Position numbers and translations under genes: made by a program. The notes under the pieces are model-generated. The model was not told the origin of the DNA, did no database searches, and was given only the letters and a program-made list of their open reading frames with translations. A stretch of 45,691 bases of DNA, from contig JAKAEO010000006.1 in NCBI GenBank assembly GCA_021818285.1, forward strand, positions 1-45,691, written 5' to 3'. Numbering within the stretch: the first letter of the stretch is position 1; the number at the start of each line of letters is the position of its first letter. Positions 26,939 to 45,691 of the stretch are shown piece after piece. This DNA is from Myxococcales bacterium. GTDB lineage: Bacteria > Myxococcota > Myxococcia > Myxococcales > Anaeromyxobacteraceae.

Positions 26939-27055
26939 GAGGACAGGATACGTGGCGGGACGGACACCGGGTGGCGGCGACCGGGAGCGGTGGCTTCGGC
27001 GCCGGGCGGAGGCTATGGTCGGCCGTCGAGGCCGCGCGGCCCCGGGGAGCGAGAC

Positions 27056-28093: not shown

Positions 28094-28108
28094 CCGCCCA
28101 CCGGCGGT

Positions 28109-28139
28109 CGTGGCGGGTATCGACGCCCCACCCGCCACG
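28109..28139. terminator. Perfect 10-bp hairpin between convergent genes
   Basis: CGTGGCGGGT (28109-28118) and ACCCGCCACG (28130-28139) are exact reverse complements with an 11-nt loop. It lies in the 55-bp gap between the stops of pdxA and the convergent WYL gene, so it probably ends transcription in both directions, although no T-run follows. Confidence 0.6.
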
Positions 28140-28148
28140 GGCCGGAGC

Positions 28149-29111: not shown

Positions 29112-30115
29112 GGCACCCGCTCCAGCTTCCCGCGCAGGTCCGCCAGCAGCCGGCGCGCCAGGGCGCGGCCGTCGGCCGGCTCGAGCAGCTCGGCCTCCGG
29201 TCCCCAGGCGAGCGCCTGGCGCACCAGCCCGGCGAGGTTTCGCACCGTGAGCCGGGCGGTGCGGGAGCCGTCGGGCTCCGTGGTCAGCCGGGCGCCCGGC
29301 AGCAGCCTCGGCGCCACCGCCGCGAGCGAGCCCCGGAAGCGCACCGCCGCCTCGCGCGGCGGGTGGACGAGGTACTCCCAGGGCTCCTGGCGCGACCAGG
29401 CGCGGATCTCGAAGCTCGCCGGGATCTCGTAGTCGGGCTTGCGCGGGTCCCCGGGGACCAGCTTCATGGCCTCGACGCGCCGGAGGTAGAAGACGCGCGG
29501 GGCGCCGCGCAGGTGGCAGTGGCCGGCGAAGATCCACTCGCCGCGGCGCCAGGCGTAGCCGTGCAGGTCGAGGAGCCGCTCGGTGACCTCGCCCCCCGGG
29601 CGCCGGTAGCGGAGCCGCATCCGGTGGCGCCGCTCGAGCGCCGCGGCGAGCGTGTCGAGGTGCTTGCGCACCGGCGACGGCTCGGAGGAGACGCCGTCCG
29701 TCTCCAGCGTCGCCGCGCGCGGCGGGAGCCCCCTCGCGCCGACGACCAGCTTGCGGAGCGCGACCTCCAGGTCGTCGCGCAGCGGGTGGTCGTGGCCGCG
29801 GAGCGCCGACTGGCCGGCGAGCCAGACGGCGGCGGCCTCCTGCGGCGAGAACTCCAGCCTGGGGAGGAAGGCCGCGCCGGTGTCCACGACGTAGGCGCCC
29901 GCCTCGCCGAGCTCGCCCGCGTGGCGCACCGGGATGCCCAGCGCCTCCAGATCCGCCTTGTCGCGGGTGAACTTCTTCTCCTTGGCCGCCGCCGAGCCCG
30001 CGTACTCGTCCGGGAAGGCGTCGTAGACGTCCTCGCGCGTGACCGGCCGTCCCTGGTCCGCGAACCAGGCGGCGAGCCGCAGGAGACGCGCTTCGGCCGA
30101 GGCGCGGGAGGGCAT
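29108..30115 (-). CDS. WYL-domain transcriptional regulator, PafB-like
   Basis: A 335-residue regulator. The N-terminal winged helix is intact here (SRASAEARLLRLAAWFADQGRPVTREDVYDAF, then AAAKEKKFTRDKADLEALGI), so this is the DNA-binding partner of the pair. The WYL domain (about residues 150-225) reads RHRMRLRYRRPGGEVTERLLDLHGYAWRRGEWIFAGHC, followed by VFYLRRVEAMKLV and a WCX domain. I chose the ATG at 30115 (MPSRASAEARLL), where family similarity begins. The next gene, PafC-like, overlaps by four bases. Upstream is a 250-bp region shared with the divergent alkaline phosphatase gene. Confidence 0.88.
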   Translation of the reverse strand: MPSRASAEARLLRLAAWFADQGRPVTREDVYDAFPDEYAGSAAAKEKKFTRDKADLEALGIPVRHAGELGEAGAYVVDTGAAFLPRLEFSPQEAAAVWLAGQSALRGHDHPLRDDLEVALRKLVVGARGLPPRAATLETDGVSSEPSPVRKHLDTLAAALERRHRMRLRYRRPGGEVTERLLDLHGYAWRRGEWIFAGHCHLRGAPRVFYLRRVEAMKLVPGDPRKPDYEIPASFEIRAWSRQEPWEYLVHPPREAAVRFRGSLAAVAPRLLPGARLTTEPDGSRTARLTVRNLAGLVRQALAWGPEAELLEPADGRALARRLLADLRGKLERVP

Positions 30116-30368
30116 GGGCGACCCCGAGTGTAGCCGAACCGCGCCGGGGAGCGAGGCGGTCGAGGGCCGGGCTCCGGCGCTCCAGGGAGGCCGGCCGGCC
30201 CGCGCGCGTGGAGCGCGACCTGGGCGAGCCGCCCTTCGAGGTGCGGCCACACGCCGCACTCCGATGCGCAAATCGGACGCGTCCCGCCCTCTCCCCGACA
30301 CACGCGCCTCCTACGGTGCGTCCACCGCACCACCGAAGTGCCCTCGCACCAACGAAAGGACGCACACC

Positions 30369-31514
30369 ATGAGGAAGACGAAGCTCGCGGCGGTGGCCCT
30401 CGCCGCCCTGTCCCTGCTGTCGCCCGCCAGCTCCCGGGCGGACGGCGCCCGCAACGTCATCGTGATGGTCCCGGACGGAATGGGGCTCGCCGACGTCACG
30501 GCGACCCGGATCTACAAGGGCGGCCTCGCCGGCTCGCCGCTCAGCTTCGAGACCCTGGAGCACATCGGCTACCAGCGGACCTACTCCCTGAACAGCGCCA
30601 TCACCGACTCGGCGCCCGCCGCCTCGGCGTGGGCCTGCGGCGAGAAGTTCAACAACGGCGAGATCTGCCTCCACAGGGACGGCCGCCCGGTGAAGCCCAG
30701 CGTGCTCGAGCTGGCCCGCAGGGCGGGGAAGGCCACCGCGCTCGTCGCCACCTCCACCATCACCCACGCCACGCCCGCCTCCTTCGGCGCGCACGTGGTC
30801 AACCGGAGCTGCGAGAACGAGATCGCCCGGCAGTACGTCGAGACCACGCACGTGGACGTGCTCCTCGGGGCCGGCACGGGCAAGTTCAACGCCGCCCGGC
30901 CCGACGCCTGCGGGACGATGGGGAACTTCGCGCAGGAGGCCCGGAACGCGGGCTACGCCCACGTGACCACGAGGGAGGAGCTGGAGCGGGCCGTGGCCGC
31001 CGGTCACCGGCTGGTCCTCGGCCTCTTCGCCGGGGACGGCGGGATGACGCCCGAGTACCTGCGCACGGCCGCGACCACCGAGCCGCGCCTGCCCGAGATG
31101 ACGCGGGCCGCCCTCCGGATCCTGGAGCGCAACCACAGCGGCTTCTTCGCCATGATCGAGGGTTCGCAGGTGGACTGGGCCAACCACGCCGACAACTACG
31201 ACTACCAGCTCGGCGAGATGCTGGCCTTCGACGAGGCGGTCGCGGTCGTCCGGGCCTGGATCGACGCCGACCCCGAGCGCAAGGAAGACACGCTGCTCGT
31301 CGTCGTCGCGGACCACGACACCGGCGGCTTCGCCGTCAACGGCCCGCAGTCGGCGCTCCTCCACGCCGGGCAGAAGGTGGAACCCGGGTGGACGACCGGC
31401 GAGCACACCGGGGTCGACACCATCATCTGGAGCCAGGGTCCGCAGAGCCGGCGGCTGGCGCGCGCCGTCGACAACACCGACGTCTACGACGTGATCGTGA
31501 AGGCGCTGGACTGA
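30369..31514 (+). CDS. Secreted alkaline phosphatase
   Basis: A 381-residue alkaline phosphatase, hydrolysing phosphomonoesters outside the cytoplasm with Zn and Mg ions. Signal peptide residues 1-24 (KTKLAAVALAALSLLSPASSRA). Asp36 in VIVMVPDGMGLAD is the first metal ligand, and the nucleophile is Ser81 in ITDSAPAASAWACG. Later ligands are in MIEGSQVDWANHADN, VVVADHDTGGFAV and TGEHTGVDTIIW. GAAAGGA is placed eight bases before the ATG. Length is shorter than E. coli PhoA but usual for this branch. A large hairpin follows the stop. Confidence 0.93.
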   Translation: MRKTKLAAVALAALSLLSPASSRADGARNVIVMVPDGMGLADVTATRIYKGGLAGSPLSFETLEHIGYQRTYSLNSAITDSAPAASAWACGEKFNNGEICLHRDGRPVKPSVLELARRAGKATALVATSTITHATPASFGAHVVNRSCENEIARQYVETTHVDVLLGAGTGKFNAARPDACGTMGNFAQEARNAGYAHVTTREELERAVAAGHRLVLGLFAGDGGMTPEYLRTAATTEPRLPEMTRAALRILERNHSGFFAMIEGSQVDWANHADNYDYQLGEMLAFDEAVAVVRAWIDADPERKEDTLLVVVADHDTGGFAVNGPQSALLHAGQKVEPGWTTGEHTGVDTIIWSQGPQSRRLARAVDNTDVYDVIVKALD

Positions 31515-31531
31515 CCTCGAACGGCCTCGCA

Positions 31532-31578
31532 CCAGGCCCGCTCCGGACACGGGAGCCCGTGCCGGGAGCGGGACCTGG
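31532..31578. terminator. Long imperfect hairpin between convergent genes
   Basis: CCAGG (31532-31536) pairs with CCTGG (31574-31578), followed inward by CCCGCTCC/GGAGCGGG and CACGGG/CCCGTG, with single-base bulges. It occupies most of the 77-bp gap between the alkaline phosphatase stop and the stop of the convergent YbjN-like gene, and is a likely bidirectional terminator. Confidence 0.6.
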
Positions 31579-31591
31579 GGAGGCGAACCGC

Positions 31592-32068
31592 TCAGGCCTG
31601 GGCGCGGGGCGCCTCGGCGCGGAGCCGCTGGTGGAACTCGCGGGCGGCCCACCGGAGCGAGCGGATGCACAGCTCGACCTGCCGCCCGTTCAGCGGACGG
31701 CCGCCCAGGAACAGCTCGGCCTGGAACTCGTACCACTTGCACCCGGGGTCGAGGCAGAACTTGGCCACCTTGGCCTCGGACTGCACGTCGTGGCCGGCGC
31801 GGAGGATGGCGTCGACGTGCGGGACCGGGTCGTCGAAGAGGTAGCCGACGCAGATGGCGACGAAGTCCGGGTCGGCCTCGTTGAGCCGCACCTGGAAGCG
31901 GGTGCCCTCGGCCTTGAAGTCGATCCGCCGGTGGCCGCCGGACGGCTCGAGGGGGTGAGGCCGGTAGCCCTCCTCCGCCAGCAGGTCGGCGATGCGGTCG
32001 GCGAACGAGCGGGAGGGCTCGGCTGCGTCGGCCGGGAGCGTGGCGGGAGTGGTCGTCGCGTCGTCCAT
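31592..32068 (-). CDS. YbjN-like / hypothetical protein
   Basis: A 158-residue soluble protein. The middle (SFADRIADLLAEEGYRP, then RRIDFKAEGTRFQVRLNEADPDFVAICVGYLF) looks like the YbjN or type III secretion chaperone-like fold, where a helix is followed by a short antiparallel sheet; I judge this from pattern only. A Cys-containing stretch FCLDPGCKWYEFQAELFL follows. No signal or membrane segment. It lies 51 bp downstream of the receiver-domain gene on the same strand and may share its transcript. Function unknown. Confidence 0.7.
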   Translation of the reverse strand: MDDATTTPATLPADAAEPSRSFADRIADLLAEEGYRPHPLEPSGGHRRIDFKAEGTRFQVRLNEADPDFVAICVGYLFDDPVPHVDAILRAGHDVQSEAKVAKFCLDPGCKWYEFQAELFLGGRPLNGRQVELCIRSLRWAAREFHQRLRAEAPRAQA

Positions 32069-32119
32069 GGGAAGAGAGTACCCGCGGGACGGACACGGCC
32101 GGGTCCGGGGCTGGCCTGG

Positions 32120-32521
32120 TCAGCCGGCGGGGCGGGCGGCGTCCGCCGGGCCCGGTCCCGATTCCCCGAGCGCGGCTCGGACCGCGCGGATCAGTTCCTG
32201 CAGCGCGAACGGCTTCTGCACGTGCGCGAAGGCCGCCGGTGCGGAGCCGGCGGGCAGCCCCGAGATGACGATGACCGGGATCTTCCGGAGCGACGGATCG
32301 CGCTGCAGCGCCTCGATCAGCTGTTCGCCGTGAAGCCGCCGCATCAGCAGGTCGAGAAGCATGAGGTCGGGCTCCCACTGGGCCGCCAGCTCGAGGCCGC
32401 GATCGCCGTCGCCCGCCGTCCGGACCTGGAACCCGGCGAGCTCCAGCGCGTAGGCCAGCGTCTCGCGCGTGTCCGCGTCGTCCTCGACGAGCAGGAGGCG
32501 CTTTCCGGGCTGTCCATCCAT
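32120..32521 (-). CDS. Stand-alone response-regulator receiver domain
   Basis: A 133-residue CheY-type receiver with no output domain. The acidic pair is in LLLVEDDADTRE, the phospho-accepting Asp in PDLMLLDLLMRR, the switch Ser in PVIVISGLPAG and the Lys in AHVQKPFALQEL. I start at the ATG at 32521 (MDGQPGKRLLL), preceded by GGGGGAG, instead of an upstream ATG whose extension has no family similarity. No histidine kinase is in the window, so it is an orphan regulator. Two 22-bp direct repeats lie 45-90 bp upstream and could be its control sites. Confidence 0.88.
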   Translation of the reverse strand: MDGQPGKRLLLVEDDADTRETLAYALELAGFQVRTAGDGDRGLELAAQWEPDLMLLDLLMRRLHGEQLIEALQRDPSLRKIPVIVISGLPAGSAPAAFAHVQKPFALQELIRAVRAALGESGPGPADAARPAG

Positions 32522-32566
32522 GGGCGCTCCCCCGAGTCTTCTCGCATCCGTCCGGCCGGACACGGT

Positions 32567-32610
32567 AGGGAGCGCGCGTTGCATCTTCAGGGAGCGCGCG
32601 TTTCAACTTC
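32567..32610. repeat. Two tandem 22-bp direct repeats upstream of the receiver gene
   Basis: The unit begins AGGGAGCGCGCGTT and continues GCATCTTC in the first copy (32567-32588) and TCAACTTC in the second (32589-32610). They match at 20 of 22 positions, with a period of exactly two helical turns. On the minus strand they lie just upstream of the receiver gene start, so transcription-factor binding at both is plausible. Confidence 0.45.
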
Positions 32611-32752
32611 GTGGCGAGGCATCCGCGCTCGTGGCCGCGTGGCTCCTCTCGCTGCCGCGCCCGCGGGCTGTCCTCCTGAGGCCGGGCCTTGCGGGACACA
32701 CCCGGGAGCCGCCCCGCCCGCTGAACCCCGCACCGGTCACCACCGCCGTCCG

Positions 32753-32781
32753 TTGACCAGCGGACGGATGTCCGCTATAAC
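32753..32781 (+). promoter_or_regulatory. Sigma-70-type promoter with an operator-like inverted repeat in the spacer
   Basis: TTGACC (32753-32758) and TATAAC (32776-32781) are separated by exactly 17 bp, near consensus. The spacer contains AGCGGAC-GGAT-GTCCGCT (32759-32776), a perfect 7-bp inverted repeat, which would place a repressor directly on the polymerase site. The predicted start of transcription is near 32788, just before the ATG at 32791. Confidence 0.6.
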
Positions 32782-32880
32782 GGAACAACCATGGAGATGG
32801 GACGAGGGACGCGGCCCCGTGACTCCCAGCCAACTCCGGCTCCGGCCGGCTCGGTGGCAAGGCCGCGCAATGGTGAGCCC

Positions 32881-33249
32881 GTGACCGACCAAGCCGAAGT
32901 GGTGCCCGACCGTCCCCGCCCGTGCTTCCGGGAGGGGCCTCCGGCCGACGACACCTGCGAGATGACGCGCGTCGTCCGCCGGCGCGGCACGCGGTTCGAG
33001 GTCTGGACGTGTACCGACCCCCAGCCGACGATCAGGGTGAAGCTCGACGCCAACCGGTTCCCGGTCGAGGACGCGAAGCGATGGTGGCCCGGCTGCGCCA
33101 GCGCCTGGTACGACGCGCTCTACCATCCAGACCACTCGTGCACCCCGGGGCGCACCCAGTTCGTGGTGTACGACGGCGAAGGGGGCCGGCGGAAGCGCGG
33201 TCGGACGCGAGGCGGAGCGACGCGGGAGGCGCGCCCGCCACCGCGCTAG
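32881..33249 (+). CDS. Small hypothetical Cys/Trp-rich protein
   Basis: About 122 residues from a GTG at 32881 (start TDQAEVVPDRPRPCF); an in-frame ATG at 32791 would add 30 low-complexity residues and give a nearly leaderless message. The core shows five cysteines and several tryptophans (RFEVWTCTDPQPTI, RWWPGCASAWYDALYHPDHSC), then VVYDGEGG and a basic Arg-rich tail. The tail suggests nucleic acid contact and the Cys suggest a metal site, but I recognise no family. It is preceded by a good promoter, which supports it being a real gene. Confidence 0.5.
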   Translation: MTDQAEVVPDRPRPCFREGPPADDTCEMTRVVRRRGTRFEVWTCTDPQPTIRVKLDANRFPVEDAKRWWPGCASAWYDALYHPDHSCTPGRTQFVVYDGEGGRRKRGRTRGGATREARPPPR

Positions 33250-33268
33250 CGACGCGAAGGGTCATCCT

Positions 33269-33289
33269 GACCTCCTGAACAAGGAGGTC
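33269..33289. terminator. 8-bp hairpin after the small hypothetical gene
   Basis: GACCTCCT (33269-33276) pairs exactly with AGGAGGTC (33282-33289) around a five-base loop. It follows the stop of the small gene by 20 bp, so it may end that transcript. No U-tract follows. Confidence 0.45.
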
Positions 33290-33479
33290 GACCAGGGCGC
33301 GATGGGCCGGCGAACTTGACCTGCCTCCAGAACGTGGACGGAATCAGACCCTAAACCACCGTTCGTGATTCGCGATCAGCGGCAAGGCCGCGGAGCGCAG
33401 GGAGAAAGTTGAAAGGGAAGGTCAACCCATCGATCGTGGCGGTTGCGAGGCCACACACGCCGATGGAGGAGCCCTTCCC

Positions 33480-33620
33480 GTGGACAACATACCCCGACTG
33501 GATCGGGCCGCGCGACGGCGGCTGATCCACCGAGGCCGAAAGACCAAGGACCTTCACACCGCCCTCCGGTTCGTCATGATCGCCAAGCTCGGACAAGGAC
33601 TCTCCAGGCAGCAGGTCGCA
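33480..33620 (+). pseudogene. IS630-like transposase N-terminal fragment
   Basis: The frame from the GTG at 33480 encodes RLDRAARRRLIHRGRKTKD, then LHTALRFVMIAKLGQGLSRQQVA, which matches the first helix-turn-helix part of IS630-type transposases. After about 46 codons the similarity stops and the rest of the frame reads as non-coding sequence. No DDE residues are present. I treat it as a truncated insertion-sequence remnant. The 33290-33479 stretch upstream holds no gene. Confidence 0.45.
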
Positions 33621-33754
33621 CACGGCAAGTCGCCTCACGCGCGCGCTCTGCGAGTTCCGCACAGAATCCCGCGCGAGCCTCTCCCACTCCATCCGGGCCG
33701 AGCACCGCGGCAGGCGGCCCGGCCTCCAGGGGCGCACCCGTCCCTGGAGCGGGT

Positions 33755-33961
33755 TCAGGCTGCCGCACGGGCCAATGCCTCGGCGCGCTCCAGCAAACCG
33801 CGCAGCTCGGCATTGGGCTCGCGAGAGCGATCGCCGCGATTCACGGCGCGGCGAAGCTGACTCACCGCCTGGGCCAGGCCGGTACCGGTGGCCCCACGCT
33901 GCGCGAGGACGGCTTCCAAGCTGCGGACGCGGCCCTTCAGCTCGCGGAATGTGTCGTTCAC
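33755..33961 (-). CDS. Small hypothetical protein, possibly coiled coil
   Basis: About 68 residues from a GTG at 33961 (VNDTFRELKGRVRSLEAVLAQ), predicted to be almost entirely helical with heptad-like Leu spacing. An in-frame ATG at 33991 would add ten residues. It follows the IS21-like fragment on the same strand by 30 bp, so it may be debris of the same element or an accessory gene of it. I recognise no family and confidence that it is expressed is low. Confidence 0.35.
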   Translation of the reverse strand: MNDTFRELKGRVRSLEAVLAQRGATGTGLAQAVSQLRRAVNRGDRSREPNAELRGLLERAEALARAAA

Positions 33962-33991
33962 GGCGGCCCCCCCCGGCTTGGTGAAGAACAC

Positions 33992-34267
33992 CTATAGGCT
34001 CGTTTCCCCTCCGGTACCAGGACCCATCGGGCCGGGGAGCTCTTCGGCGTCGCCCTGCGCCGCCAGCGCCGCCGAGACGAACTCGTCGGTGAGCGCCTCG
34101 ACCCAGTGCCCCGGCTCGACGCCGCGCGCCCGCGCCGCCGCCAGGTAGCGCCGCTCCGTCTTCAGGTCGAGGCCCAGTTGCTGCGCGACCTGCCTCTTGG
34201 TCACGCCCGGCAGCCACTGCCTCAGGACCTCCTTGACCTCCAGCATCGTGACCTCGCGAAACGCCAT
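33992..34267 (-). pseudogene. Truncated IS21-type transposase (IstA N-terminal region)
   Basis: The 91 codons begin MAFREVTMLEVKEVLRQWLPG and continue TKRQVAQQLGLDLKTERRYLAAAR, the helix-turn-helix start of IS21-family IstA proteins. A full IstA is around 400-500 residues; here the frame stops after an unrelated tail and the integrase-type catalytic domain is absent, as is istB. Upstream, two related repeats at 34323-34378 look like the multiple terminal repeats that IS21 elements carry next to istA. Confidence 0.55.
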
Positions 34268-34322
34268 CGCCGCCGCCTCCCGTCCGTGGAGGGGAGCAAC
34301 TCGGCCGGTTGGTCACGCCGAT

Positions 34323-34378
34323 GAGGGAGGGAATGACTCTGGGAAGCCCCCAGGTCCGAGGGAGGAATGATTCTGAAG
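34323..34378. repeat. Paired IS21-type terminal repeats
   Basis: GAGGGAGGGAATGACTCTGG (start of 34323-34346) and GAGGGAGGAATGATTCTGAA (start of 34358-34378) are two imperfect copies in the same direction. They sit immediately upstream of the truncated istA-like gene, as the L-end repeats of IS21 elements do, and about 45 bp from the tRNA remnant. Confidence 0.4.
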
Positions 34379-34425
34379 ATCTCACGCGCCCGGGGCCCCT
34401 AGATCCTGGAAACCGACACGGCTTC

Positions 34426-34470
34426 TGGCGCGCCCCGGAGGACGGAACCCCATGGCCTTCGGATCCGTGG
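34426..34470 (-). pseudogene. Degenerate tRNA 3' remnant (older attachment site)
   Basis: Read on the minus strand, this ends in GGGGCGCG-CCA and includes a T-arm-like GGGGTTCCGTCCTC and GGATCCGAAGGCC. It aligns over its whole length with the cleaner tRNA-Arg 3' half at 37755-37799, starting with an identical CTTCTGGCGCGCCC on the plus strand. The T-loop has lost one base (TTCCGT in place of TTCAAAT), so it cannot be functional. It marks the left edge of the MORC/Fic segment. Confidence 0.6.
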
Positions 34471-34500
34471 CCACCGTGCCATCCTGGGCTAGACTGCGGC

Positions 34501-36288
34501 GTGGCCAAGGCTTCGGCGCGCAAGCTCGTCCTCCGCCCCGCGGACCCCTTCGACCTCATCCGCTGGCTGGCCCGATCCCAGTCGGATCCGCGCAAGGCGG
34601 TGGCGGAGCTGGTGCAGAACTCGGTCGACGCGCGTGCGCGAAACGTCGCCATCGAGCGCCGGCGGCTGCGCGGCGGCCCCGCCCTGGTGGTGCGCGACGA
34701 CGGGGAGGGGGTGCTGCCCGGGCTCGGCCGCGAGGAGGCTCTCCGCTTCATCGCCACCAACATCGGCAGCTCCCAGAAGCGCAAGCTCAGCCCCGACGAG
34801 CGCCGGCGGCTCGTGGTCACCGGCCAGTACGGCGTCGGGCTCCTGGGGTTCTGGTCCATCGGGCACGGGATGGAGATCCGGTCGCGCGTGGCGGGCTCGG
34901 GGCTGCACGTCCTGCGGCTCGTCGAGGACGAGGCTCAGGTCGCGCTCGACGAGCTGCCCGTCGACATCGGCGCGCCGCAGACCTTCACCGAGATCGTGGT
35001 GACCCAGCTGCACGACACCGCCTCGCGGGCGCTCTCCGGGCGTCGGCTGGCGGAGTACCTCTCGGCGGAGCTCAGGGGCCCCATCCTCGCCTCCGGGGTG
35101 AAGGTGGAGATCCGCGACGCGATGGCGAGGGGGCTCGCGCAGAAGCGCTTCCCGGTGGCGCCGCGACCCTTCACCGGGGAGCGCCTCGAGCTCCCCGCCG
35201 AGCTGCCGGTGGAGGGCCATCCGCCGGTGCGGTTGGAGCTGTACCTGGCACGGGGAGCCGAACGGCCGGCGATCCAGGTGAGCTGCGCCGGGACGCTGGT
35301 GGCCGACGACGTCGCGGAGCTGCACGCCCTGGATCTCGCCGTGCCTCCCTGGGTGGGGCGGGAGCTCGCGGGGCTCATCGAGTTCCCCGGCTTCACCGTG
35401 CCCCCCGGATCGCGGCGCGGCGTCGTGCCCGACGGCGCCGCCGAGGCGTTCGCCGGTGCCCTGAGCGCGCTCCGTCCGCTCGTCGAAGCCGAGCTGCGCC
35501 GCCTGGAGCGTCAGCGCCGCGCGGACGCCGATCGCCAGGTCGTCGAGGATCTGCGCCGCGCCCTCCGCGGTCTGCGCGCGCGCATGCCGCAGTACGATCT
35601 GCCTGCGGTACTTGGCGGCCGAGGCGAGGAGGGCCCGGGCCGGCGCGGGGCGGCGGAGCCGGCGGAGGCGGACGCCGACGTGGCTTCCATCGCGCAGCCC
35701 GAGCTCTTCCCCGGCGGCCCGCTGGCCGCGGCGCGCATCGTGCCCGATCCCGTCGAGGTCGCGCCTGGCCACGAACGCCGCGCCCGCGCGGAGGCGCTCG
35801 ACGCGGACGGCCGGCGCATCCGCGAGGGCGTGAGCTATCGCTGGTCTCTGGAGGGAGCCGGCTTCGCGGTGACCGGGGAGGGCCCCCGCCCTGCGGTGAG
35901 CGCGGACGCCGCGATCCGGCCGGGAGCGACGGCGCGCCTGCGCGTCGAGGCGGAGAAGGACGGGAGGCAGGCGGTCGCGGAGGCGACCGTGGAGGCCGTC
36001 GAGCCGCCGCGGGACGAGGCCGGGTTCGGCATCCCCGAGCCCGAACTCGTCGATGCGCCCGGCGAAACCTGGAGGAGCCGATTCGACGGCACGCGCTGGC
36101 AGGTGAACCAGATGCACGAGGACTACCTGGCGCTGAAGGGCGAGTCCCGGTCGCGCCTGCGCTACCTCCTCGCGCTCCTCGCCAAGGACCTGGCGCAGCA
36201 CGCACACCGGGTGCCCGGCGCCGTGGAGGCGTCGGAGGACGTGGTGGCGATCCTCGCGCTGGTCGAGCGGAACTTGCGCGGGGCGTGA
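34501..36288 (+). CDS. MORC/HSP90-like GHKL ATPase with Ig-like middle domain
   Basis: A 595-residue protein from the GTG at 34501. The ATPase domain shows the N-box AVAELVQNSVDARA (residues 33-46), G1 RDDGEGVLPG (65-74) and G2 GQYGVGLLGFWSIG (108-121), the pattern of MORC, HSP90 and MutL ATPases without kinase His. A transducer-like S5 part follows to about residue 330. Residues about 400-500 look like an Ig-type beta sandwich (VSYRWSLEGAGFAVTGEGP). The C-terminal 70 residues are helical (YLALKGESRSRLRYLLALLA). MORC-like ATPases are known from prokaryotic conflict systems. It lies between two tRNA remnants with a Fic gene 200 bp downstream, so it is probably island cargo. Partner and target unknown. 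Confidence 0.75.
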   Translation: MAKASARKLVLRPADPFDLIRWLARSQSDPRKAVAELVQNSVDARARNVAIERRRLRGGPALVVRDDGEGVLPGLGREEALRFIATNIGSSQKRKLSPDERRRLVVTGQYGVGLLGFWSIGHGMEIRSRVAGSGLHVLRLVEDEAQVALDELPVDIGAPQTFTEIVVTQLHDTASRALSGRRLAEYLSAELRGPILASGVKVEIRDAMARGLAQKRFPVAPRPFTGERLELPAELPVEGHPPVRLELYLARGAERPAIQVSCAGTLVADDVAELHALDLAVPPWVGRELAGLIEFPGFTVPPGSRRGVVPDGAAEAFAGALSALRPLVEAELRRLERQRRADADRQVVEDLRRALRGLRARMPQYDLPAVLGGRGEEGPGRRGAAEPAEADADVASIAQPELFPGGPLAAARIVPDPVEVAPGHERRARAEALDADGRRIREGVSYRWSLEGAGFAVTGEGPRPAVSADAAIRPGATARLRVEAEKDGRQAVAEATVEAVEPPRDEAGFGIPEPELVDAPGETWRSRFDGTRWQVNQMHEDYLALKGESRSRLRYLLALLAKDLAQHAHRVPGAVEASEDVVAILALVERNLRGA

Positions 36289-36490
36289 AGCGCGACGCCG
36301 TCAGGCCGCCCGGGTAAGAGAATCGGCCACCCGGAGTCCGACGATGCCCAAGGCCGCGCCGCAGAGGGCGCCCACATGACCGCAGGCACCGGCACGAGGT
36401 CATGTCTCCCGCAGGTCGAATGTCACAAGGAAAGCGGGCTTTACTTTTACGGAGCGCTGGGAAAGGATCCGACCTCAAGGAGGAGCGGCC
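36289..36490. other. Gap between the GHKL ATPase and Fic genes
   Basis: No gene is confidently seen. On the minus strand, 36301-36400 reads ACGHVGALCGAALGIVGLRV followed by a stop, which looks like the last membrane helix of a rhomboid-type protein and may be a relic. A less GC-rich patch, CTTTACTTTTACGG near 36440, is the likely Fic promoter. Confidence 0.3.
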
Positions 36491-37684
36491 GTGGCGAGGA
36501 CCGTGGGTGAGACCCGGAAAAGCTCGGTCGCCGGCGAGACCATCGCCGCTTTCGTCCCGCTGTCGCTCCCGCCGTCCGGGCCACCGCTCGCGGTGGAGTC
36601 GCTCCGCGAGGTGCTTTCGCGGGCGGAGCACTCGCTGTCCAGGCTCGACCTGGCCGGCGAGATGGTGCCCTCCCTCGACTGGTTCATCTACGCCTTCGTC
36701 CGCAAGGAGGCCGTGGTGTCCTCGCAGATCGAAGGCACGGAGGCCACCCTCGACGACCTGCTGACGTTCGAGGCGACCCCGGGGGGGACGAGACCCGGCG
36801 CCGACGTGGAGGAAGTCTGCAACTACCTCGACGCGCTCGCGTGGGCGCGGCGCGAGTTGGCGCGGCCGAAGGGGTTGCCGCTCTCCATGCGGCTCGTCCA
36901 CGGCGTCCACCGGCGCCTGATGAAGGGCGTCCGCGGCGCCTCGAAGCAGCCGGGCGAGGTGAGGCGAATCCAGAACTGGGTGGGCGGCACGCGTCCGGGA
37001 AACGCGGCATACGTGCCGCCGCCGCCCGAGGAGGTGCCCCGGCTCCTCGGCGAGCTGGAGCGGTACTTCCACGCCCAGGATTCGCTGCCGCCACTCGTGC
37101 GCGCAGGGCTCGTGCACGTGCAGTTCGAGTCCATCCATCCGTACCTGGATGGCAACGGCCGCGTGGGACGTCTCCTGATCGCCCTGCTCCTCGAGCACTG
37201 GAAGCTCCTCGGCTCCCCCCTGCTCTACCTGAGCCTCTACTTCAAGCGGCGGCGGCCCGACTACTACCGGCTGCTGAACGAGGTGAGGAGGGCCGGGGAC
37301 TGGGAGGGCTGGAGCTCGTTCTTCCTCGAGGGCGTGGCGGAGATCGCGGAGGAATCGGCCGCAGCCGCACGCGACCTCTACCGCCTCGTGGCGCGCGATC
37401 GGGAGCGCGTCGTCACCAGGAAGGGCTCATCGCTCACCGCCGTCAGGCTCCTCGACCTCCTGCCCCGCCGGCCGATCGTCACAATCCCTGGCCTGGTAGA
37501 GCTCCTCGACACGACCAAGCCCACGGCCGCGAAGAGCGTTGCCCTGCTGGAGTCGCTGGGCATCCTGCACGAGATGACCGGGCGGAAGAGGGACCGGACG
37601 TACCGCTACGCCCGCTACCTCGATCGTCTTCGGGTGGGGACCGAGCTCGAAGGTCGGACGCACCGAGGCTCGCCAACCGCCTGA
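36491..37684 (+). CDS. Fic-family AMP-transferase with N-terminal inhibitory helix
   Basis: A 397-residue Fic protein, expected to transfer AMP from ATP to a protein hydroxyl. The catalytic loop HPYLDGNGRVGR is at residues 216-227 with His, Asp and Gly residues intact. The inhibitory motif SSQIEGTEA (S-x-x-x-E-G, residues 77-82) shows it is a class II, self-inhibited Fic. The Fic_N region comes first and the C-terminal 90 residues form a winged helix (LVELLDTTKPTAAKSVALLE). The GTG start follows AAGGAGGAG. No separate antitoxin is adjacent, in keeping with class II. It lies within the tRNA-flanked island and may target a host or phage protein (inference). Confidence 0.88.
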   Translation: MARTVGETRKSSVAGETIAAFVPLSLPPSGPPLAVESLREVLSRAEHSLSRLDLAGEMVPSLDWFIYAFVRKEAVVSSQIEGTEATLDDLLTFEATPGGTRPGADVEEVCNYLDALAWARRELARPKGLPLSMRLVHGVHRRLMKGVRGASKQPGEVRRIQNWVGGTRPGNAAYVPPPPEEVPRLLGELERYFHAQDSLPPLVRAGLVHVQFESIHPYLDGNGRVGRLLIALLLEHWKLLGSPLLYLSLYFKRRRPDYYRLLNEVRRAGDWEGWSSFFLEGVAEIAEESAAAARDLYRLVARDRERVVTRKGSSLTAVRLLDLLPRRPIVTIPGLVELLDTTKPTAAKSVALLESLGILHEMTGRKRDRTYRYARYLDRLRVGTELEGRTHRGSPTA

Positions 37685-37717
37685 AATCTAAAGGCCAAAA
37701 CGCACCCACAGTAAATA

Positions 37718-37744
37718 GCCCCGCGAGCTAAATGCCCGCGGGGC
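37718..37744. terminator. Hairpin terminator beside the tRNA-Arg remnant
   Basis: GCCCCGCG (37718-37725) pairs with CGCGGGGC (37737-37744); the loop centre is GCTAAATGC. On the minus strand it follows the CCA end of the tRNA fragment by about ten bases, the usual place of a tRNA terminator, and is followed by TATTTACT. It is a homologue of the hairpin at 45642-45672 (loop TAAGT in place of TAAAT). Confidence 0.65.
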
Positions 37745-37754
37745 CATCACCTTC

Positions 37755-37799
37755 TGGCGCGCCCTAGAGGATTTGAACCTCTGGCCTTCGGATTCGTAG
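37755..37799 (-). pseudogene. tRNA-Arg(ACG) 3' half, displaced by island integration
   Basis: On the minus strand this reads anticodon loop CTACGAA, stem TCCGA, variable AGGCC, T-arm AGAGG-TTCAAAT-CCTCT, acceptor AGGGCGC, G, CCA. Structure fits the 3' half of tRNA-Arg with anticodon ACG. Upstream (GACGT) does not pair with TCCGA, so the gene is cut at the anticodon loop, the normal crossover site of tyrosine integrases. An intact copy is not in the window. This marks an island border and is not a working tRNA. Confidence 0.75.
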
Positions 37800-37982
37800 A
37801 CGTCATTTGTCATACGGGCAGGTGGGCGGACTTGCGGTGACTTTCAGGAACCTCCGGCGGTTGGCGCGATCGCGATGACCACGGCGGGGTACCCGGGGGA
37901 ACGCGAGTGCACGCGAAGATGGATGAGATCTGGATGAAGTCATCCGCCCGCGGCCACTAACCCGACCCGAGAAACAGGTGAG
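37800..37982. other. Gap after the tRNA remnant, holding a 21-bp direct repeat
   Basis: No gene is seen. The frame ending MDEIWMKSSARGH and a stop at about 37960 is short and shares six codons with a tail at 45514, so this may be the last part of an eroded integrase gene. The rest is non-coding. Confidence 0.35.
37921..37941. repeat. Left copy of a perfect 21-bp direct repeat
   Basis: GGATGAGATCTGGATGAAGT plus C, identical to 45514-45534 on the same strand. The two copies bracket the DUF429 gene, toxin-antitoxin pair and nuclease operon. They could be the traces of an element's recombination sites or of two copies of an integrase 3' end. Confidence 0.6.
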
Positions 37983-38738
37983 CTAGATCGTCACTGGTGG
38001 TGACAGGCAGAGCTTCTCGAGTGACCCTCGGTGCGGAAGCGCAATCCACCCCTCCACGCGCGCTGCTTCCCTTTCACCTGCCTCGGGCCTCAGCGTCAGT
38101 TCCCTGGCTGCCGCCCTCGCGATGAGGCTCGCGACCAGCGCGTCGAAGGCGTCGTCGCAGGTGGCGAGGAGCTCCTCGTCACGGGCCGAGATGGTGAGCC
38201 AAGGAGTGCGCTTCCTGAGGGACGTGAGGAGTTCCTCGAGGGAACGTACGTTCTCTCGGCCCTTGTAGGCCTTGTGCCGCAGTCCCCACTGGAAGAGCGC
38301 AGCTGCGGGATAGACCTCCTGGACGCGTCCTCCGGACCGATCGCTCACCTCGAGGCGATCGAGAAGCCAGGCGCAACGGCTCGCAGGGATGGCAATTGCA
38401 TCGGAGGAGACGCTGAGCGGGGTGAGCTTCTCGGTGACCTGGTGAACCCTCTCGTCCGTGACCCGAAGCCGGAGCCTGCGGCGGGATGCCTTCTCCCAGG
38501 CTTCGACCGGCCACTTCCGGCCTGCATGATGTGCGCTGATGGCCTCCACGAAGCAGGACGGCCAGCCGAACGGCGCGTCGATCCCGACGACATCAGCTGC
38601 GCGCGCCCGATGCAGAATCTCCTCATCGTCCAACCCAGTTGACACCCACTGCACGGTTGCAGCGTCGCGTGTCCACTCGATGGCGCAGCCACCAGTGTCC
38701 CTGGGTTCGGCTGCGAGGTCGATCCCCAGCGTCGTCAT
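37983..38738 (-). CDS. DUF429 family protein (RNase H-fold, predicted nuclease)
   Basis: A 251-residue DUF429 protein. It begins MTTLGIDLAAEPRDTGGCAI, with the first catalytic Asp after beta 1, then ADVVGIDAPFGWPS and, near residue 190, ATCDDAFDALVASLIARAA, the acidic triad of this fold. The family is predicted to be a nuclease but its substrate is unknown. It lies 54 bp downstream of the antitoxin gene on the same strand, so it may be part of the toxin-antitoxin transcript. It is the left-most gene inside the 21-bp direct repeats. Confidence 0.8.
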   Translation of the reverse strand: MTTLGIDLAAEPRDTGGCAIEWTRDAATVQWVSTGLDDEEILHRARAADVVGIDAPFGWPSCFVEAISAHHAGRKWPVEAWEKASRRRLRLRVTDERVHQVTEKLTPLSVSSDAIAIPASRCAWLLDRLEVSDRSGGRVQEVYPAAALFQWGLRHKAYKGRENVRSLEELLTSLRKRTPWLTISARDEELLATCDDAFDALVASLIARAAARELTLRPEAGEREAARVEGWIALPHRGSLEKLCLSPPVTI

Positions 38739-38792: not shown

Positions 38793-39107
38793 TCACCCGA
38801 GCAGCGCCTCGGGGTGGTTCTTCGCGACCGTCAGGAGCTTCAGGGCGGCGTCGGAGGGGTGACGGGCGTTCGTTTCCCAGGCCTGGACCGTGCGAGGGCT
38901 CACGTTGAGGATCCGGGCGAAGGCTGCCTGAGACACCCGAAGGTGGGAACGCACTGCGACCACTTCCTTGGCGCCCATCGGGGCGGGCGGCCTCAGCTCG
39001 ACATCGCGAACGGTCAGCTGTCGGGCGCCACGGTGGTAGGCGATGGCATCTTCCAGGCCCGCATTCAGCTTTGCGAACGCCGTGGACTTGGTGGACTTGC
39101 GCTTCAT
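38793..39107 (-). CDS. HigA-type antitoxin (Xre helix-turn-helix)
   Basis: A 104-residue antitoxin. The C-terminal DNA-binding domain reads VVAVRSHLRVSQAAFARILN, followed by VSPRTVQAWETNARHPSDAALKLL, a clear Xre helix-turn-helix of the HigA/MqsA type. The N-terminus (MKRKSTKSTAFAKLNAGLEDAI) resembles the toxin-binding part of RelB/HigA-like proteins. Its ATG overlaps the toxin stop by four bases. It is expected to neutralise the toxin and to repress the shared promoter by binding the repeats at 39463-39494. Confidence 0.88.
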   Translation of the reverse strand: MKRKSTKSTAFAKLNAGLEDAIAYHRGARQLTVRDVELRPPAPMGAKEVVAVRSHLRVSQAAFARILNVSPRTVQAWETNARHPSDAALKLLTVAKNHPEALLG

Positions 39108-39457
39108 GACGTCTCCTCCTTCAATTGTTTCACCATTGCCGCGATGACTCGACGTTCTGCAGGCGAGAGGTCGGACTTCTCCCGCTTTCCAAATATGGCA
39201 AGCAGGTGAGTCACCGCCCGATGGGGAAGGTCCAGGTAGTACACCCGCACGCCGCCGCTCTTGCCCCGCCCGACCCGTCGCTGGCCAAGCCGTACCTTTC
39301 GCAGCCCGCCTGTACCTGGAACGAGATCGCCAGTCTGCGGGTCAGCGAGGATGCCTTGCTCCAGCGCGACCAGGTCATCGTGGCCCAGCTCGCGGGTCCG
39401 CTCGAGTCGCCGGCGATCCTCGCTGAAGCCAGCCGATTCTACGAACTTGCGTCTCAC
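39104..39457 (-). CDS. HigB/RelE-superfamily toxin
   Basis: A 117-residue toxin. The GTG at 39457 begins RRKFVESAGFSEDRRRLERT. The RelE-fold core shows PGTGGLRKVRLGQRRVGRGK, then GGVRVYYLDLPHRAVTHLLAIFGKREKSDLSP, the pattern of HigB-type mRNA interferases (DUF4258-free RelE/ParE branch), which cut mRNA on the ribosome. The order toxin first, antitoxin second is that of higBA. The promoter region is shared with the divergent helicase operon, so expression of the two may be linked. Confidence 0.85.
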   Translation of the reverse strand: MRRKFVESAGFSEDRRRLERTRELGHDDLVALEQGILADPQTGDLVPGTGGLRKVRLGQRRVGRGKSGGVRVYYLDLPHRAVTHLLAIFGKREKSDLSPAERRVIAAMVKQLKEETS

Positions 39458-39462
39458 CGAAA

Positions 39463-39494
39463 CATACTACCACGTAGGCATACTACCAGGTAGT
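39463..39494. promoter_or_regulatory. Two 16-bp operator repeats between the toxin gene and the nuclease operon
   Basis: CATACTACCACGTAGG (39463-39478) and CATACTACCAGGTAGT (39479-39494) are adjacent direct repeats, each with internal symmetry (CTACCNNGTAG; ACTACC-AGGTAGT). They lie six bases upstream of the toxin start and about 80 bp upstream of the helicase start, so an antitoxin bound here could affect both directions. Confidence 0.6.
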
Positions 39495-39573
39495 GCTGCA
39501 GCGGTCCCTTGGGGACCGGCTGCGAGGGCCCGGCTTCCCGGGGGGACAGCGTCGGCATGGTAGGCTCACCGAG

Positions 39574-42500
39574 ATGGCGAGCCCTCCGGGCCTCTATGAC
39601 CTGTTGATGACTCGGGGGCTCGAGCGGGCGCTGGCGGAGCTCCCTGAGGGTCTTTCCGTTGCGCGGGAGGGCATAGAACCCAGCGCGATCCATGAGCGCC
39701 TGGCGAGGTACTTCGCGTCGGAGCTCGAGTCCGCGCTCCGCTCCCTTCGAGGCAAGGACGCTGGCCCAGGCGAGCAGGTTGAAGTGGTCAACGCCCTCCT
39801 TAGCGACCTCGCCAAGCGCGTCCCTCACTCGGGCCCTGGCGCCGACGGGGAAGTTCTGGCGCCTCCGAGTGCTCTACTAGCGATTCACGCGCCCCCTGCT
39901 CCGCCGGAAAGGCCAACAGCACCCCTGGGAGTAAGCACGCTCCTCACCCAGGCGAAGCACGAACCCCGGCTCGGCGCAGAACTAGCAAAGGAAGTGGCCT
40001 CCGCCGACGGCGTCGACATGCTCGTCAGCTTCATCAAGTGGCGCGGCTGGCGACGGGTGAGAGATGCCTTCGAGGTCTTTGCGCGTGCCGGGAAACGCAT
40101 GCGCGTGCTGACGACGACCTACATGGGTGCGAGCGACAAGGAGGCTCTGGACGCCATCGCCCGGCTTCCCGGCGCAGAGGTGCGTGTCTCCTTCGATACG
40201 CGGCGTACCCGGCTTCACGCCAAGGCCTGGCTATTCCACCGCGAAAGCCGGTTCAGCTCCGTCTACGTCGGGTCCGCCAATCTCTCGGCGGCGGCCCTCG
40301 GCGAGGGAGTGGAGTGGAGCCTCAAGGCGAGCGAGGCCGATGCTCCTCACATTGTCGAGAAATTCCGGGGAGCCTTTGCTTCGCTGTGGGAGGACGGCGA
40401 GTTCGAGCACTACAACCCCGACGACCCCAGTCAAGCCGGGAGACTCGCTGCGGCGCTCAAGGCCGAACGCGGCGGAACACGTGAAGACGCGCCGTTCTTT
40501 GATCTTCGGCCCTACGAATACCAAGCAGCCATCCTCGAACGGTTGCGGGTCGAGCGCGAGACCCACGACCGGTGGCGAAACCTGGTCGTGGCTGCCACCG
40601 GGACCGGCAAGACGATGGTCGCCGCCTTCGACTATCGCGCGCAGGTTCCAGCGTCGGGAGTGCGTCCTCGGCTTCTCTACGTTGCTCACCGCGAGGAGAT
40701 CCTGGAGCAAGCGCTCAAGACCTTCCGGCACGTCTTGCGTGATCACGCCTTCGGCGAGCTCCTGACCGGGCGAAGCAGCCCGACGTCGCACGAGCACCTG
40801 TTCGCGACGATCCAATCGCTGTCGCGAAGGGACCTCGTCTCGGCCATGGGAGCGGCCTACTGGGACTACATCATCGTCGACGAGTTTCACCATGCTGCCG
40901 CGGAGACGTATCAGCACTTCCTCTCTGCAGCGCAACCCAAGGTCCTTCTCGGCCTCACGGCGACCCCAGAGCGTGCGGACGGCCTTGACGTCCTGCACTG
41001 GTTTGGCGGGCACGCTGCGGCCGAGATCCGGCTATGGGACGCGCTGGAGAAGCAGATACTCGTCCCATTCGAGTACTACGGCATCGCAGATGGGGTCGAC
41101 CTGGCCCAGGTTCGCTGGGCACGCGGTGGCTACGACCTGAGCGAGCTCTCGAATCTCTATTCCGGCCACGACGAGCGCGCGCGGCTCATCGTCGACAAAC
41201 TCCGCAGCATCCACGGCCATCCGGAGACCGCACGCGGTCTCGGCTTCTGCGTGAGCGTGGAGCATGCGCGCTTCATGGCACGCCGCTTCAGCGAAGCCGG
41301 TATCCCATCGATCTCGCTAGACGGCGAGACCGACGAGGCACTGCGTGCAGATGCGCCCCGGAGGCTCGCCAACGGGAAGGTCGCCTTCATCTTCACCTGC
41401 GATCTCTACAACGAGGGCGTGGACCTCCCGATGGTGGATACGCTGCTCATGCTCCGGCCGACGGAGAGCGCGACGCTCTTCCTGCAACAGCTCGGCCGCG
41501 GGCTTCGGCTTCACCCCGGGAAGGAGTCCACGCTCGTCCTGGATTTCATCGGCCAGCCGCACGAGCGGTTCCGCTTCGACAGGAAGCTCTCTGCGGCTAC
41601 AGGCCTTCCGCGGGGAGACCTCAAGGGGGCCGTGGAGAACGACTTCCCGACACTGCCCTCGGGCTGCCACCTGCATCTCGAACGGACGGCACGTCAAATC
41701 ATTCTCGACAACCTCAAGCAGGCAATTCGAGGCGGCTCCATCAGGCTCTCCGCGGAGCTGCGTGACCTCCTCCGGGAACGTGGCAGCGTGACTCTTGGCC
41801 AGTTCCTCGAGGCGACCGGCAGACCCCTGGAGGACGTCTATGCAGGCGGCGTCGGAGGCTGGACGACGCTTCGCAGGCTTGCGGGGGGCCTACCGGAGGG
41901 TGGAACGGACCAGGAGCGGAGACTGAGCGTAGGGCTTGGGAAGTTCAATCATGTCGACGAGCCTGCCAGGCTCCGGCTCTACCGTGCGCTGGCGGCGAAC
42001 CGCACCCTCGCCCTCCAAGAGGCGTCCGAGCTCGATCGCCGCAGGTTGCTGATGTTCGCCCTTCGACTCACGGATGGAACGGCCAGCTCCATCGAGGGTC
42101 TCTTGGAGCCGTTCTGGCAGAGCAGCGCACTGCGCCAGGAGTTGGTGGAGCTTTGCGAGGTGCTCGATCAGCGGATCGCGGTCGTCGGCGCGGAGGCAGA
42201 TCTTCCGGCGGAATGGCCCCTGGCCGTCCACCGGACGTACACGCGAGACGAAATCCTGGCCGCAGTCGGAGCGTCGAACGTAAGCAAGCGGAAGCACTTC
42301 CGCGAGGGCGTCCTTCGCCTACGCGACGCAAAGGCCGAGGTCTTCTTTGTGACCTTGGACAAGTCCTCCGGGCACTTTTCTCCCACGACCACCTACGAGG
42401 ACTACGCCATCAGCGCTGGGCTGTTCCATTGGCAGTCCCAAAGCACGACGAGCGATACATCTGAAGGCGGTCGCCGGTACATCACCGGAGCCAGAGACGG

Positions 42501-42672
42501 ATGGCGGTTTCTGCTCTTCGTGCGTGCAACCACGAGCGACGCGTACACGTTTCTTGGCCCGGTCACCTACTCCAGCCACCGCGGAAGCCGGCCCATGAGC
42601 ATCACCTGGAAGCTCGACGTCCCGATTCCACCGGCATTCCTGACGGAGTACGCGACGCTGCGCAGCGCGTAG
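39574..42672 (+). CDS. HKD nuclease-SF2 helicase-DUF3427 fusion protein
   Basis: A 1032-residue protein. Residues about 110-300 are a phospholipase D-fold nuclease with one HKD motif: LHAKAWLF at 212, then GSANLSAAALGEGVEWSLK. The SF2 helicase follows: Walker A AATGTGKTMVAA (about 340), DEFHHAAAE (about 435), LGLTATPERADG, and motif VI QQLGRGLRLHPG (about 637). The last 220 residues are a DUF3427 domain (FREGVLRLRDAKAEVFFVTL, YEDYAISAGLFHWQSQS). The ATG at 39574 is chosen because the preceding in-frame sequence is not conserved-looking and MASPPGLYDLLMTRGL is the typical family start. It is the first of four co-directional genes and is probably a DNA-translocating nuclease. Codons are less GC-extreme than in the left part. 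Confidence 0.88.
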   Translation: MASPPGLYDLLMTRGLERALAELPEGLSVAREGIEPSAIHERLARYFASELESALRSLRGKDAGPGEQVEVVNALLSDLAKRVPHSGPGADGEVLAPPSALLAIHAPPAPPERPTAPLGVSTLLTQAKHEPRLGAELAKEVASADGVDMLVSFIKWRGWRRVRDAFEVFARAGKRMRVLTTTYMGASDKEALDAIARLPGAEVRVSFDTRRTRLHAKAWLFHRESRFSSVYVGSANLSAAALGEGVEWSLKASEADAPHIVEKFRGAFASLWEDGEFEHYNPDDPSQAGRLAAALKAERGGTREDAPFFDLRPYEYQAAILERLRVERETHDRWRNLVVAATGTGKTMVAAFDYRAQVPASGVRPRLLYVAHREEILEQALKTFRHVLRDHAFGELLTGRSSPTSHEHLFATIQSLSRRDLVSAMGAAYWDYIIVDEFHHAAAETYQHFLSAAQPKVLLGLTATPERADGLDVLHWFGGHAAAEIRLWDALEKQILVPFEYYGIADGVDLAQVRWARGGYDLSELSNLYSGHDERARLIVDKLRSIHGHPETARGLGFCVSVEHARFMARRFSEAGIPSISLDGETDEALRADAPRRLANGKVAFIFTCDLYNEGVDLPMVDTLLMLRPTESATLFLQQLGRGLRLHPGKESTLVLDFIGQPHERFRFDRKLSAATGLPRGDLKGAVENDFPTLPSGCHLHLERTARQIILDNLKQAIRGGSIRLSAELRDLLRERGSVTLGQFLEATGRPLEDVYAGGVGGWTTLRRLAGGLPEGGTDQERRLSVGLGKFNHVDEPARLRLYRALAANRTLALQEASELDRRRLLMFALRLTDGTASSIEGLLEPFWQSSALRQELVELCEVLDQRIAVVGAEADLPAEWPLAVHRTYTRDEILAAVGASNVSKRKHFREGVLRLRDAKAEVFFVTLDKSSGHFSPTTTYEDYAISAGLFHWQSQSTTSDTSEGGRRYITGARDGWRFLLFVRATTSDAYTFLGPVTYSSHRGSRPMSITWKLDVPIPPAFLTEYATLRSA

Positions 42673-45442: not shown

Positions 45443-45492
45443 GCCTCTGGGAATTCGACGACCGGCTTGCCGTAACGCGCGTCGCCTGAGCC
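45389..45492. repeat. 47-bp perfect tandem duplication at the 3' end of the last gene
   Basis: Copies 45389-45435 and 45436-45482 are identical, beginning CGCCTGAGCCTCTGGGAATT, and a third partial copy of ten bases (CGCCTGAGCC) follows to 45492. The gene's TGA falls at the start of copy two, so the duplication lies outside the coding frame and the protein end is unchanged. Length 47 is not a multiple of three. The ten-base ends suggest slippage between short repeats. Confidence 0.9.
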
Positions 45493-45641
45493 GGTTGGGA
45501 GGGCGGACTTCTTGGATGAGATCTGGATGAAGTCGCCGAGCGGGGCGCGCGGAAGTGGCTGATACCACGGCGAATCAACCGAATATTCGCTCATCCGCAA
45601 AGGGATTTCGTATCCGAAGGCCGAACCGGACCTAAAGTGAA
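45493..45641. other. Non-coding tail with a short reading frame
   Basis: No gene is confidently seen. A frame reading RADFLDEIWMKSPSGARGSG and then TGA (45505-45562) looks like the end of an integrase or other protein whose body is missing; its LDEIWMK is encoded by the direct repeat. Confidence 0.3.
45514..45534. repeat. Right copy of a perfect 21-bp direct repeat
   Basis: Identical to 37921-37941 and in the same direction. In both places the repeat is read in the same phase as DEIWMK followed by a short tail and a stop (KSPSGARGSG here, KSSARGH on the left). The shared GGGCGGACTT lies three bases before this copy's CTT and 88 bases before the left copy, which points to a past deletion or recombination. 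Confidence 0.6.
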
Positions 45642-45672: not shown

Positions 45673-45691
45673 CTCGTTTTCTGGCAGATCG

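Follow-up and report, generated by a model that had tools for sequence, protein, structure and literature searches.

Attachment-site remnants and the ends of an island

The stretch analyzed here, called the window throughout, is the entire contig C17 (45,691 bp; JAKAEO010000006.1) of a Myxococcales bacterium assembly (GCA_021818285.1; 3.5 Mb in 318 contigs, 87% complete), from a soil bacterium that genome comparison places in the Anaeromyxobacteraceae. An earlier note, made from the window sequence, had described two 3' remnants of a tRNA-Arg(ACG) gene in the same orientation and read them as traces of repeated integration at one site. We followed up these remnants, the island that lies to the right of the younger one (island 1) and the tRNA gene from which they derive. 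The features that bear on the question are the following (att, attachment site):

34423-34470, minus strand: att remnant B, older, a decayed tRNA-Arg(ACG) 3' half
37718-37749, minus strand: terminator hairpin after remnant A (-32.4 kcal/mol in 60 nt)
37752-37799, minus strand: att remnant A, younger, a perfect tRNA-Arg(ACG) 3' half and the left boundary of island 1
37800-37945, no strand assigned: left-end module of island 1
37921-37940, plus strand: GGATGAGATCTGGATGAAGT, putative integrase arm site, left; an exact 20-mer found at element ends only
45514-45533, plus strand: GGATGAGATCTGGATGAAGT, putative integrase arm site, right; exact 20-mer
45641-45672, minus strand: terminator at the tRNA-proximal end of island 1 (-30.4 kcal/mol)
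45671-45691, minus strand: apparent start of a third att copy (45671-45685), then AGATCG, probably adapter

Remnant A matches C14:1730-1777 at 48 of 48 positions, spanning the 3' half of tRNA-Arg(ACG) and 3 nt past its 3' end (C14, C27 and C217 are other contigs of the same genome). Remnant B agrees with the same 48 nt at 37 positions without gaps (83% with gaps; genome-wide BLAST E 4e-5), whereas the best match in 14 Mb of order-3 Markov sequence modeled on the window is 31/48 and the second-best place in the window itself reaches 26/48; in ~470 kb of scanned loci, all other matches of at least 30/48 are tRNA-Arg genes or recognizable tRNA-Arg remnants. Remnant B scores 13.6 bits with an att profile, for an E of 0.0022 within the window and 0.024 within a larger set. 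The two remnants share register and orientation, with the tRNA sense on the minus strand; the pair first noted is therefore confirmed, except that both matches begin 3 nt before the starts originally assigned. Nine of the 11 substitutions in remnant B are A/T to G/C changes, and the anticodon is kept (CGT on the plus strand, or ACG); as we read its sequence, T-stem pairing is gone and the T-loop consensus is lost, which marks a decayed, non-functional copy. Derivation from another isoacceptor was rejected (30/48 to tRNA-Arg(CCG) vs 37/48 to tRNA-Arg(ACG)). Judged by sequence, remnants A and B are displaced attachment-site remnants. ARAGORN finds no complete tRNA in the window, and Rfam at permissive thresholds returns nothing relevant, half tRNAs being too short. 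Positions 37718-37799 are 88% identical to sequence at the intact tRNA of Anaeromyxobacter sp. PSR-1, and the hairpin at 37718-37749 is probably the former tRNA terminator, displaced together with remnant A.

Only one intact tRNA-Arg(ACG) was detected in the genome (C14:1733-1809, minus strand). Its 3' end lies 96 bp from the end of a tyrosine recombinase gene (L003:543-1640; PF00589, E 7.5e-26) that follows an HTH_17 excisionase-like gene, and the interval holds GGATGAGATCTGGATGAAGT and a terminator hairpin. The exact 20-mer has three copies in the genome, beside the C14 integrase and at 37921-37940 and 45514-45533, and the only other place resembling it carries three mismatches. The 37.8-45.7 kb island thus has it at each end, and the C14 element has it at its integrase end. 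Such placement, together with a doubled GGATGA in the 20-mer, suggests an integrase arm site. Island 1 extends from 37800 to about 45685 and appears to keep both ends, with both arm-like sites in place. Its G+C content is 65-66%, down from 73-76% over 1-32.7 kb.

At the right edge of the window, positions 45671-45685 match C14:1722-1736 exactly, a stretch that comprises the immediate flank of the intact tRNA and the first bases of its 3' end; AGATCG follows at the contig end. The 40 nt at 45641-45680 share 95% identity with the flank of the intact PSR-1 tRNA. AGATCG, the first six bases of the common Illumina adapter, is probably adapter sequence here, so the contig appears to stop inside a third attachment-site copy. 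This copy may be the intact tRNA in some cells, or a remnant followed by the C14 element. The expected tRNA-Arg(ACG) was thus found beside sequence matching the right end of the window, outside it and flanked by an integrase gene; that it follows the window directly is not established, since it lies on a separate contig and the window ends at the apparent third copy. A tRNA-like stretch at 45609-45622 (plus strand) was too weak to count (att profile E 0.5).

The integration site in related genomes

The tRNA query was searched against 60 related genomes (G001, G002 and so on), and cargo homologs were counted in 24 genomes of the family. Partial tRNA copies found besides intact genes cover the same stretch, and most stop at the 5' edge of the anticodon loop (...TTCGGATTCGTAG). 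In G004 and G005 they lie 6.2 and 76 kb, respectively, from the intact tRNA; others occur in G001, G007 and G015, the last with two remnants 6.4 kb apart on one contig and a third on another contig. A related integrase open reading frame (ORF) ends within ~120 bp of the tRNA 3' end, or reads into the tRNA, at 8 of 15 intact-tRNA loci (one ORF is truncated and one cut by a contig end; a further locus has a short fragment). A strong hairpin lies just 3' of every intact tRNA, and its sequence varies between genomes and between the layers of this genome, so the terminator seems to arrive with the element. The hotspot spans the family, and the search turned up no relative with the two fragments of the window but not the cargo.

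Gene content at the site varies around recurring members. G015 has a homolog of the window's Fic protein (79% amino acid identity) and the toxin-antitoxin-like pair between two stacked remnants, with the exact 20-mer GGATGAGATCTGGATGAAGT directly before Fic (L074:10895). Homologs of the island 1 HNH nuclease occur in 10 of the 24 family genomes, one per genome, and 8 of the 10 (source genome included) share a contig with this tRNA or a remnant. The distances are 10.5 and 11.4 kb in two complete genomes of 5 Mb, 3.9 and 12.6 kb in another pair and 58 kb in two more; in G001 the homolog lies 2.8 kb from a remnant. Homologs of the restriction-like protein lie near the same tRNA in G004, G019, G009 and G022. 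G004 and G019 share with the window the succession of restriction-like gene and HNH, which lie 10 to 17 kb from the tRNA on its 3' side; in G004 a remnant and a 6.2-kb island stand between these genes and the tRNA. The integrases closest to that of C14 (78%) come from Anaeromyxobacter terrae and A. soli, and HNH-PLD genes stand immediately after them. G001, the flank of which is 94-96% identical to that of the source genome, has HNH-PLD-PDDEXK immediately after a segment with 92% identity to window 32739-33315; the ATPase, Fic, DUF429 and restriction-like genes are not found between that segment and HNH-PLD-PDDEXK.

A near-empty site is available in G002, of the same genus, where neither an integrase nor a remnant is found behind the tRNA; HypF follows at 3.3 kb and a malic enzyme gene at 10.6 kb, the intervening 3.3 kb being unassigned. 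The same malic enzyme gene lies 92 kb behind the tRNA in G004 and 106 kb in G019, which supports large-scale accumulation at the tRNA in a comparison that crosses genera, G004 and G019 belonging to another genus. In the source genome, contig C27 carries a flank collinear with that of G002; the contig breaks off within HypF. The segment at 20.3-24.7 kb was rejected as a marker of the native flank, because it is absent from G001 and nearly all others, and the malic enzyme flank of G002 was used instead.

The integrase family also appears to have spread to a second arginine tRNA. In the Myxococcales metagenome-assembled genome BP8.bin42 (L096, 3178-7053), an integrase 54% identical adjoins tRNA-Arg(CCG), and a displaced 45-nt copy of the 3' half of that tRNA lies 3.8 kb away, the same design at a sister gene. 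A separate observation concerns L061 (G009) and L068 and L070 (G013, G020), where a matching change occurs in both strands of the tRNA acceptor stem, 5' and 3'; as the 3' strand should be element-borne, this suggests elements matched to the host lineage.

A probable tandem array of islands and the alternatives to it

Based on the remnants, the tRNA-adjacent integrase, the shared 20-mer, the match at the right end, the hotspot in relatives, the near-empty site of G002 and the drop in G+C, we read the locus as a tandem array of tRNA-Arg(ACG)-targeted islands, inserted by tyrosine recombinases with crossover in the anticodon loop, with a probability of about 0.87. We propose that an incoming circle would carry its own tRNA 3' half followed by its own terminator, and that recombination in the anticodon loop would rebuild the tRNA from these, pushing the previous 3' half and the old terminator to the far end of the island. 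Repeated insertion would then stack islands with the oldest remnant farthest from the tRNA; since the old 3' half would be displaced at each insertion, distance from the tRNA would order the insertions. The copies are in direct orientation at 34423 and 37752, with the apparent start of a third at 45671, as expected for tandem accretion, and two are likewise stacked in G015. Repeated integration at tRNA-Arg(ACG), as the earlier note had it, is upheld by the remnants and by the intact tRNA with its adjoining integrase, as is its order of an older insertion to the left (decayed remnant at 34423) and a younger one to the right (perfect remnant at 37752). Three or more layers may be present, with C14 bringing a further element, one that does bear an integrase.

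Several observations weigh against this interpretation. Neither island in the window contains an integrase; remnant B has no terminator or recognizable element end beside it, which leaves the extent of the left island uncertain; the att profile detects no further remnant above background left of 34423 (1-34 kb), though that region also looks at least partly accessory; and C17 and C14 are not physically joined in the assembly, their order being inferred. The lack of an integrase in island 1 can be accommodated if it is a mobilizable island with both ends kept, the ends of which could be recognized by the integrase of the next element (C14). In this sense island 1 would resemble a cis-mobilizable element (CIME), with attL complete and attR cut by the contig end, and its mobilization by the neighbor's recombinase through the shared 20-mer sites is plausible.

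The isolation of remnant B, which lacks any recognized terminator, arm site or element end, could also mean that only 37752 is a true att remnant and that 34423 is a chance resemblance or a fragment moved in some other way, leaving one island boundary in the window. Its profile score is modest, and its neighborhood (33.3-34.3 kb) is a mosaic of pieces like repeated sequences in relatives; however, its identity exceeds the simulated maximum by six positions, it shares orientation, register and tRNA end position with 37752 only 3.3 kb away, its substitutions run mostly in the direction expected for decay in a G+C-rich genome, and the Fic gene to its right also sits between two remnants in G015. 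We consider this explanation improbable. Still less credible, to the point of being very nearly dismissed, is that the fragments are themselves functional, as tRNA-derived RNAs or as processing sites for neighboring genes: the T-arm and terminator of remnant A are intact, but the 5' half and the promoter are missing, the T-arm of remnant B is broken, and the fragments of relatives end at the recombination point and then give way to element ends.

The number of layers is less settled than their nature. In a mixture of strains, the window end would join the intact tRNA directly in some cells and the C14 integrase element would be an alternative occupant, giving two layers per cell and not three. 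The assembly is in 318 contigs and contains only one other exact att copy (C14), and the contig stops exactly where both arrangements would share sequence. Nothing speaks directly against a mixture, as a collapsed third copy would look identical, but G004 has a three-layer layout with related cargo; we regard the mixture as possible but on the doubtful side. The tandem array admits a broader extension, about which we are almost evenly divided: each integration would replace the whole 3' half and terminator of this tRNA, making mobile defense elements, and not the chromosome, the source of its T-arm, 3' acceptor strand and terminator, so that remnants are fossils of earlier alleles, and integrase-less islands would be moved by a neighbor via arm sites. 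In genus g6, the T-stems of intact tRNAs are AGAGG (G012) or ACTGG (G007, G015), and the remnants in G007 and G015 carry AGAGG; these alleles seem to be a visible consequence of 3'-half replacement.

The Islander catalog of islands in tRNA and tmRNA genes includes tandem arrays, 125 of them with two or more islands, and defines as class A the anticodon-centered attachment sites of tRNA-targeted tyrosine recombinases (PMC4383910). The present locus is like those islands in having a tRNA at one end, a displaced 3' fragment at the other, a tRNA-adjacent tyrosine integrase and an anticodon-centered site (PMC4383910): the C14 integrase gene adjoins the attachment site, an intact tRNA is accompanied by a displaced fragment in the same orientation (on separate contigs here, on a single sequence in G004 and G005), and, in the source genome and most relatives, the identity blocks extend from the anticodon loop as far as the 3' end. 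Islander tandems require an integrase for each island (PMC4383910), unlike the integrase-less islands of the window; to the extent of the search, both the host group and the tRNA locus are new. The ssrA islands of Dehalococcoides are likewise stacked behind one RNA gene, with short direct repeats of its 3' end, in a region of high plasticity, and some lack an integrase and are proposed to be mobilizable in cis, which matches island 1; their recombinase is a serine enzyme, their target tmRNA and their cargo dehalogenase genes, whereas here we find a tyrosine recombinase, tRNA-Arg and defense-type genes (PMC3146451). The accretion model of the ICESt1/ICESt3 type, in which a CIME without integration genes keeps attL and attR in tandem with a same-site element, also resembles the locus; unlike accreted integrative and conjugative or integrative and mobilizable elements, no conjugation genes are seen in the window, and mobilization is a proposal (PMC5704250). 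The general mechanism is thus well established, and what is new is its members in a group without a described site in the papers searched, including those on Anaeromyxobacter islands or integrases.

Cargo and the left flank

The remaining features of the array are predicted genes:

34503-36288, plus strand: GHKL ATPase (HATPase_c_3-type; PF13589, E 7.6e-12)
36491-37684, plus strand: SoFic-like Fic protein (PADLOC SoFic, E 2.7e-110)
37983-38738, minus strand: DUF429 protein, candidate defense gene, PDC-S44-like (PF04250, E 6.5e-24; PADLOC, E 3.2e-8)
38793-39457, minus strand: toxin-antitoxin-like pair, a helix-turn-helix (HTH)/NadS/MqsA-type antitoxin (38793-39107) and a small partner (39104-39457), both with homologs in G015
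39493-42672, plus strand: type IV restriction-like PLD-helicase-DUF3427 protein (PADLOC mREase_IV, E 4e-232)
42715-43662, plus strand: HNH nuclease (PF13391, E 1.4e-13)
43665-44513, plus strand: PLD-like nuclease (weak PLDc_2 match; homologs after HNH in G001, G013, G019 and G020)
44504-45442, plus strand: PDDEXK-type (YhcG_C-like) nuclease (PDC-S02, E 1.9e-17)

PADLOC matches in the window are SoFic, mREase_IV, PDC-S02 and PDC-S44, and scans of the island 1 proteins against protein-family and defense profiles reveal no transfer or conjugation genes. Anti-phage-type genes thus occupy one site and vary between relatives, as in the defense hotspots of E. coli (PMC10121019) and Pseudomonas (PMC10250203), where gene sets of this type vary at a fixed site; unlike in those hotspots, the layers at one tRNA can be ordered via remnants, and the function of the cargo is predicted. 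Because most HNH-bearing genomes have HNH behind this tRNA, the GHKL ATPase, the DUF429 protein and a 1516-amino acid WYL protein (below) become candidate defense genes, and a defense role for the cargo as a whole is inferred. The locus thereby maps an Anaeromyxobacteraceae integration hotspot where defense-type genes enter and turn over. Its stacked remnants give the insertions an order in time, and the T-stem alleles, with the element-borne terminators, suggest how extensively parasites can rewrite a tRNA gene.

The ATPase and Fic genes had been assigned to one older insertion, which is not established. An end site precedes Fic in G015, a search of the other 23 family genomes gave no ATPase homolog (E <= 1e-10), and the two genes differ in G+C (75% vs 69%); a further boundary between them may have been lost. 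We placed the ATPase start near 34503 (GTG) by reading the sequence; its ORF opens at 34309.

Further observations concern copies and decay of island sequence. The left-end module of island 1 has a counterpart (78% identity over 132 nt) at an element end on C217, where a truncated tRNA-Arg 3' half (35 nt, 97%) lies 126 bp from it (C217:18068-18360; L027:13068-13360) and an integrase-like gene ~4.5 kb further in; this locus may be one more such island or may belong to the array itself. In G004 (C1:4467556-4468506; L105) the HNH homolog has an internal TGA stop, a case of cargo decay in an older layer. A perfect 47-bp tandem duplication at 45389-45482 spans the end of the PDDEXK gene and is either real or an assembly artifact near the contig end.

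The comparison with G002, G004 and G019 suggests that much of the contig left of 34 kb may be accessory. The region at 25451-32699 holds a DUF2779 gene and the gene for the WYL/PafC-HTH protein of 1516 amino acids, with homologs in G005, G015 and G021 close to this tRNA or to remnants of it, and homologs of the WYL part in G004 and G019 close to the malic enzyme gene; it is possibly older cargo of the same hotspot. Positions 33316-34422 form a mosaic of short pieces resembling different places in relatives (33351-33455 occurs three times in G011), which looks like insertion-sequence debris. At 9609-11052, diverged internal repeats (~66% identity over 480 nt) lie in long overlapping ORFs on both strands.

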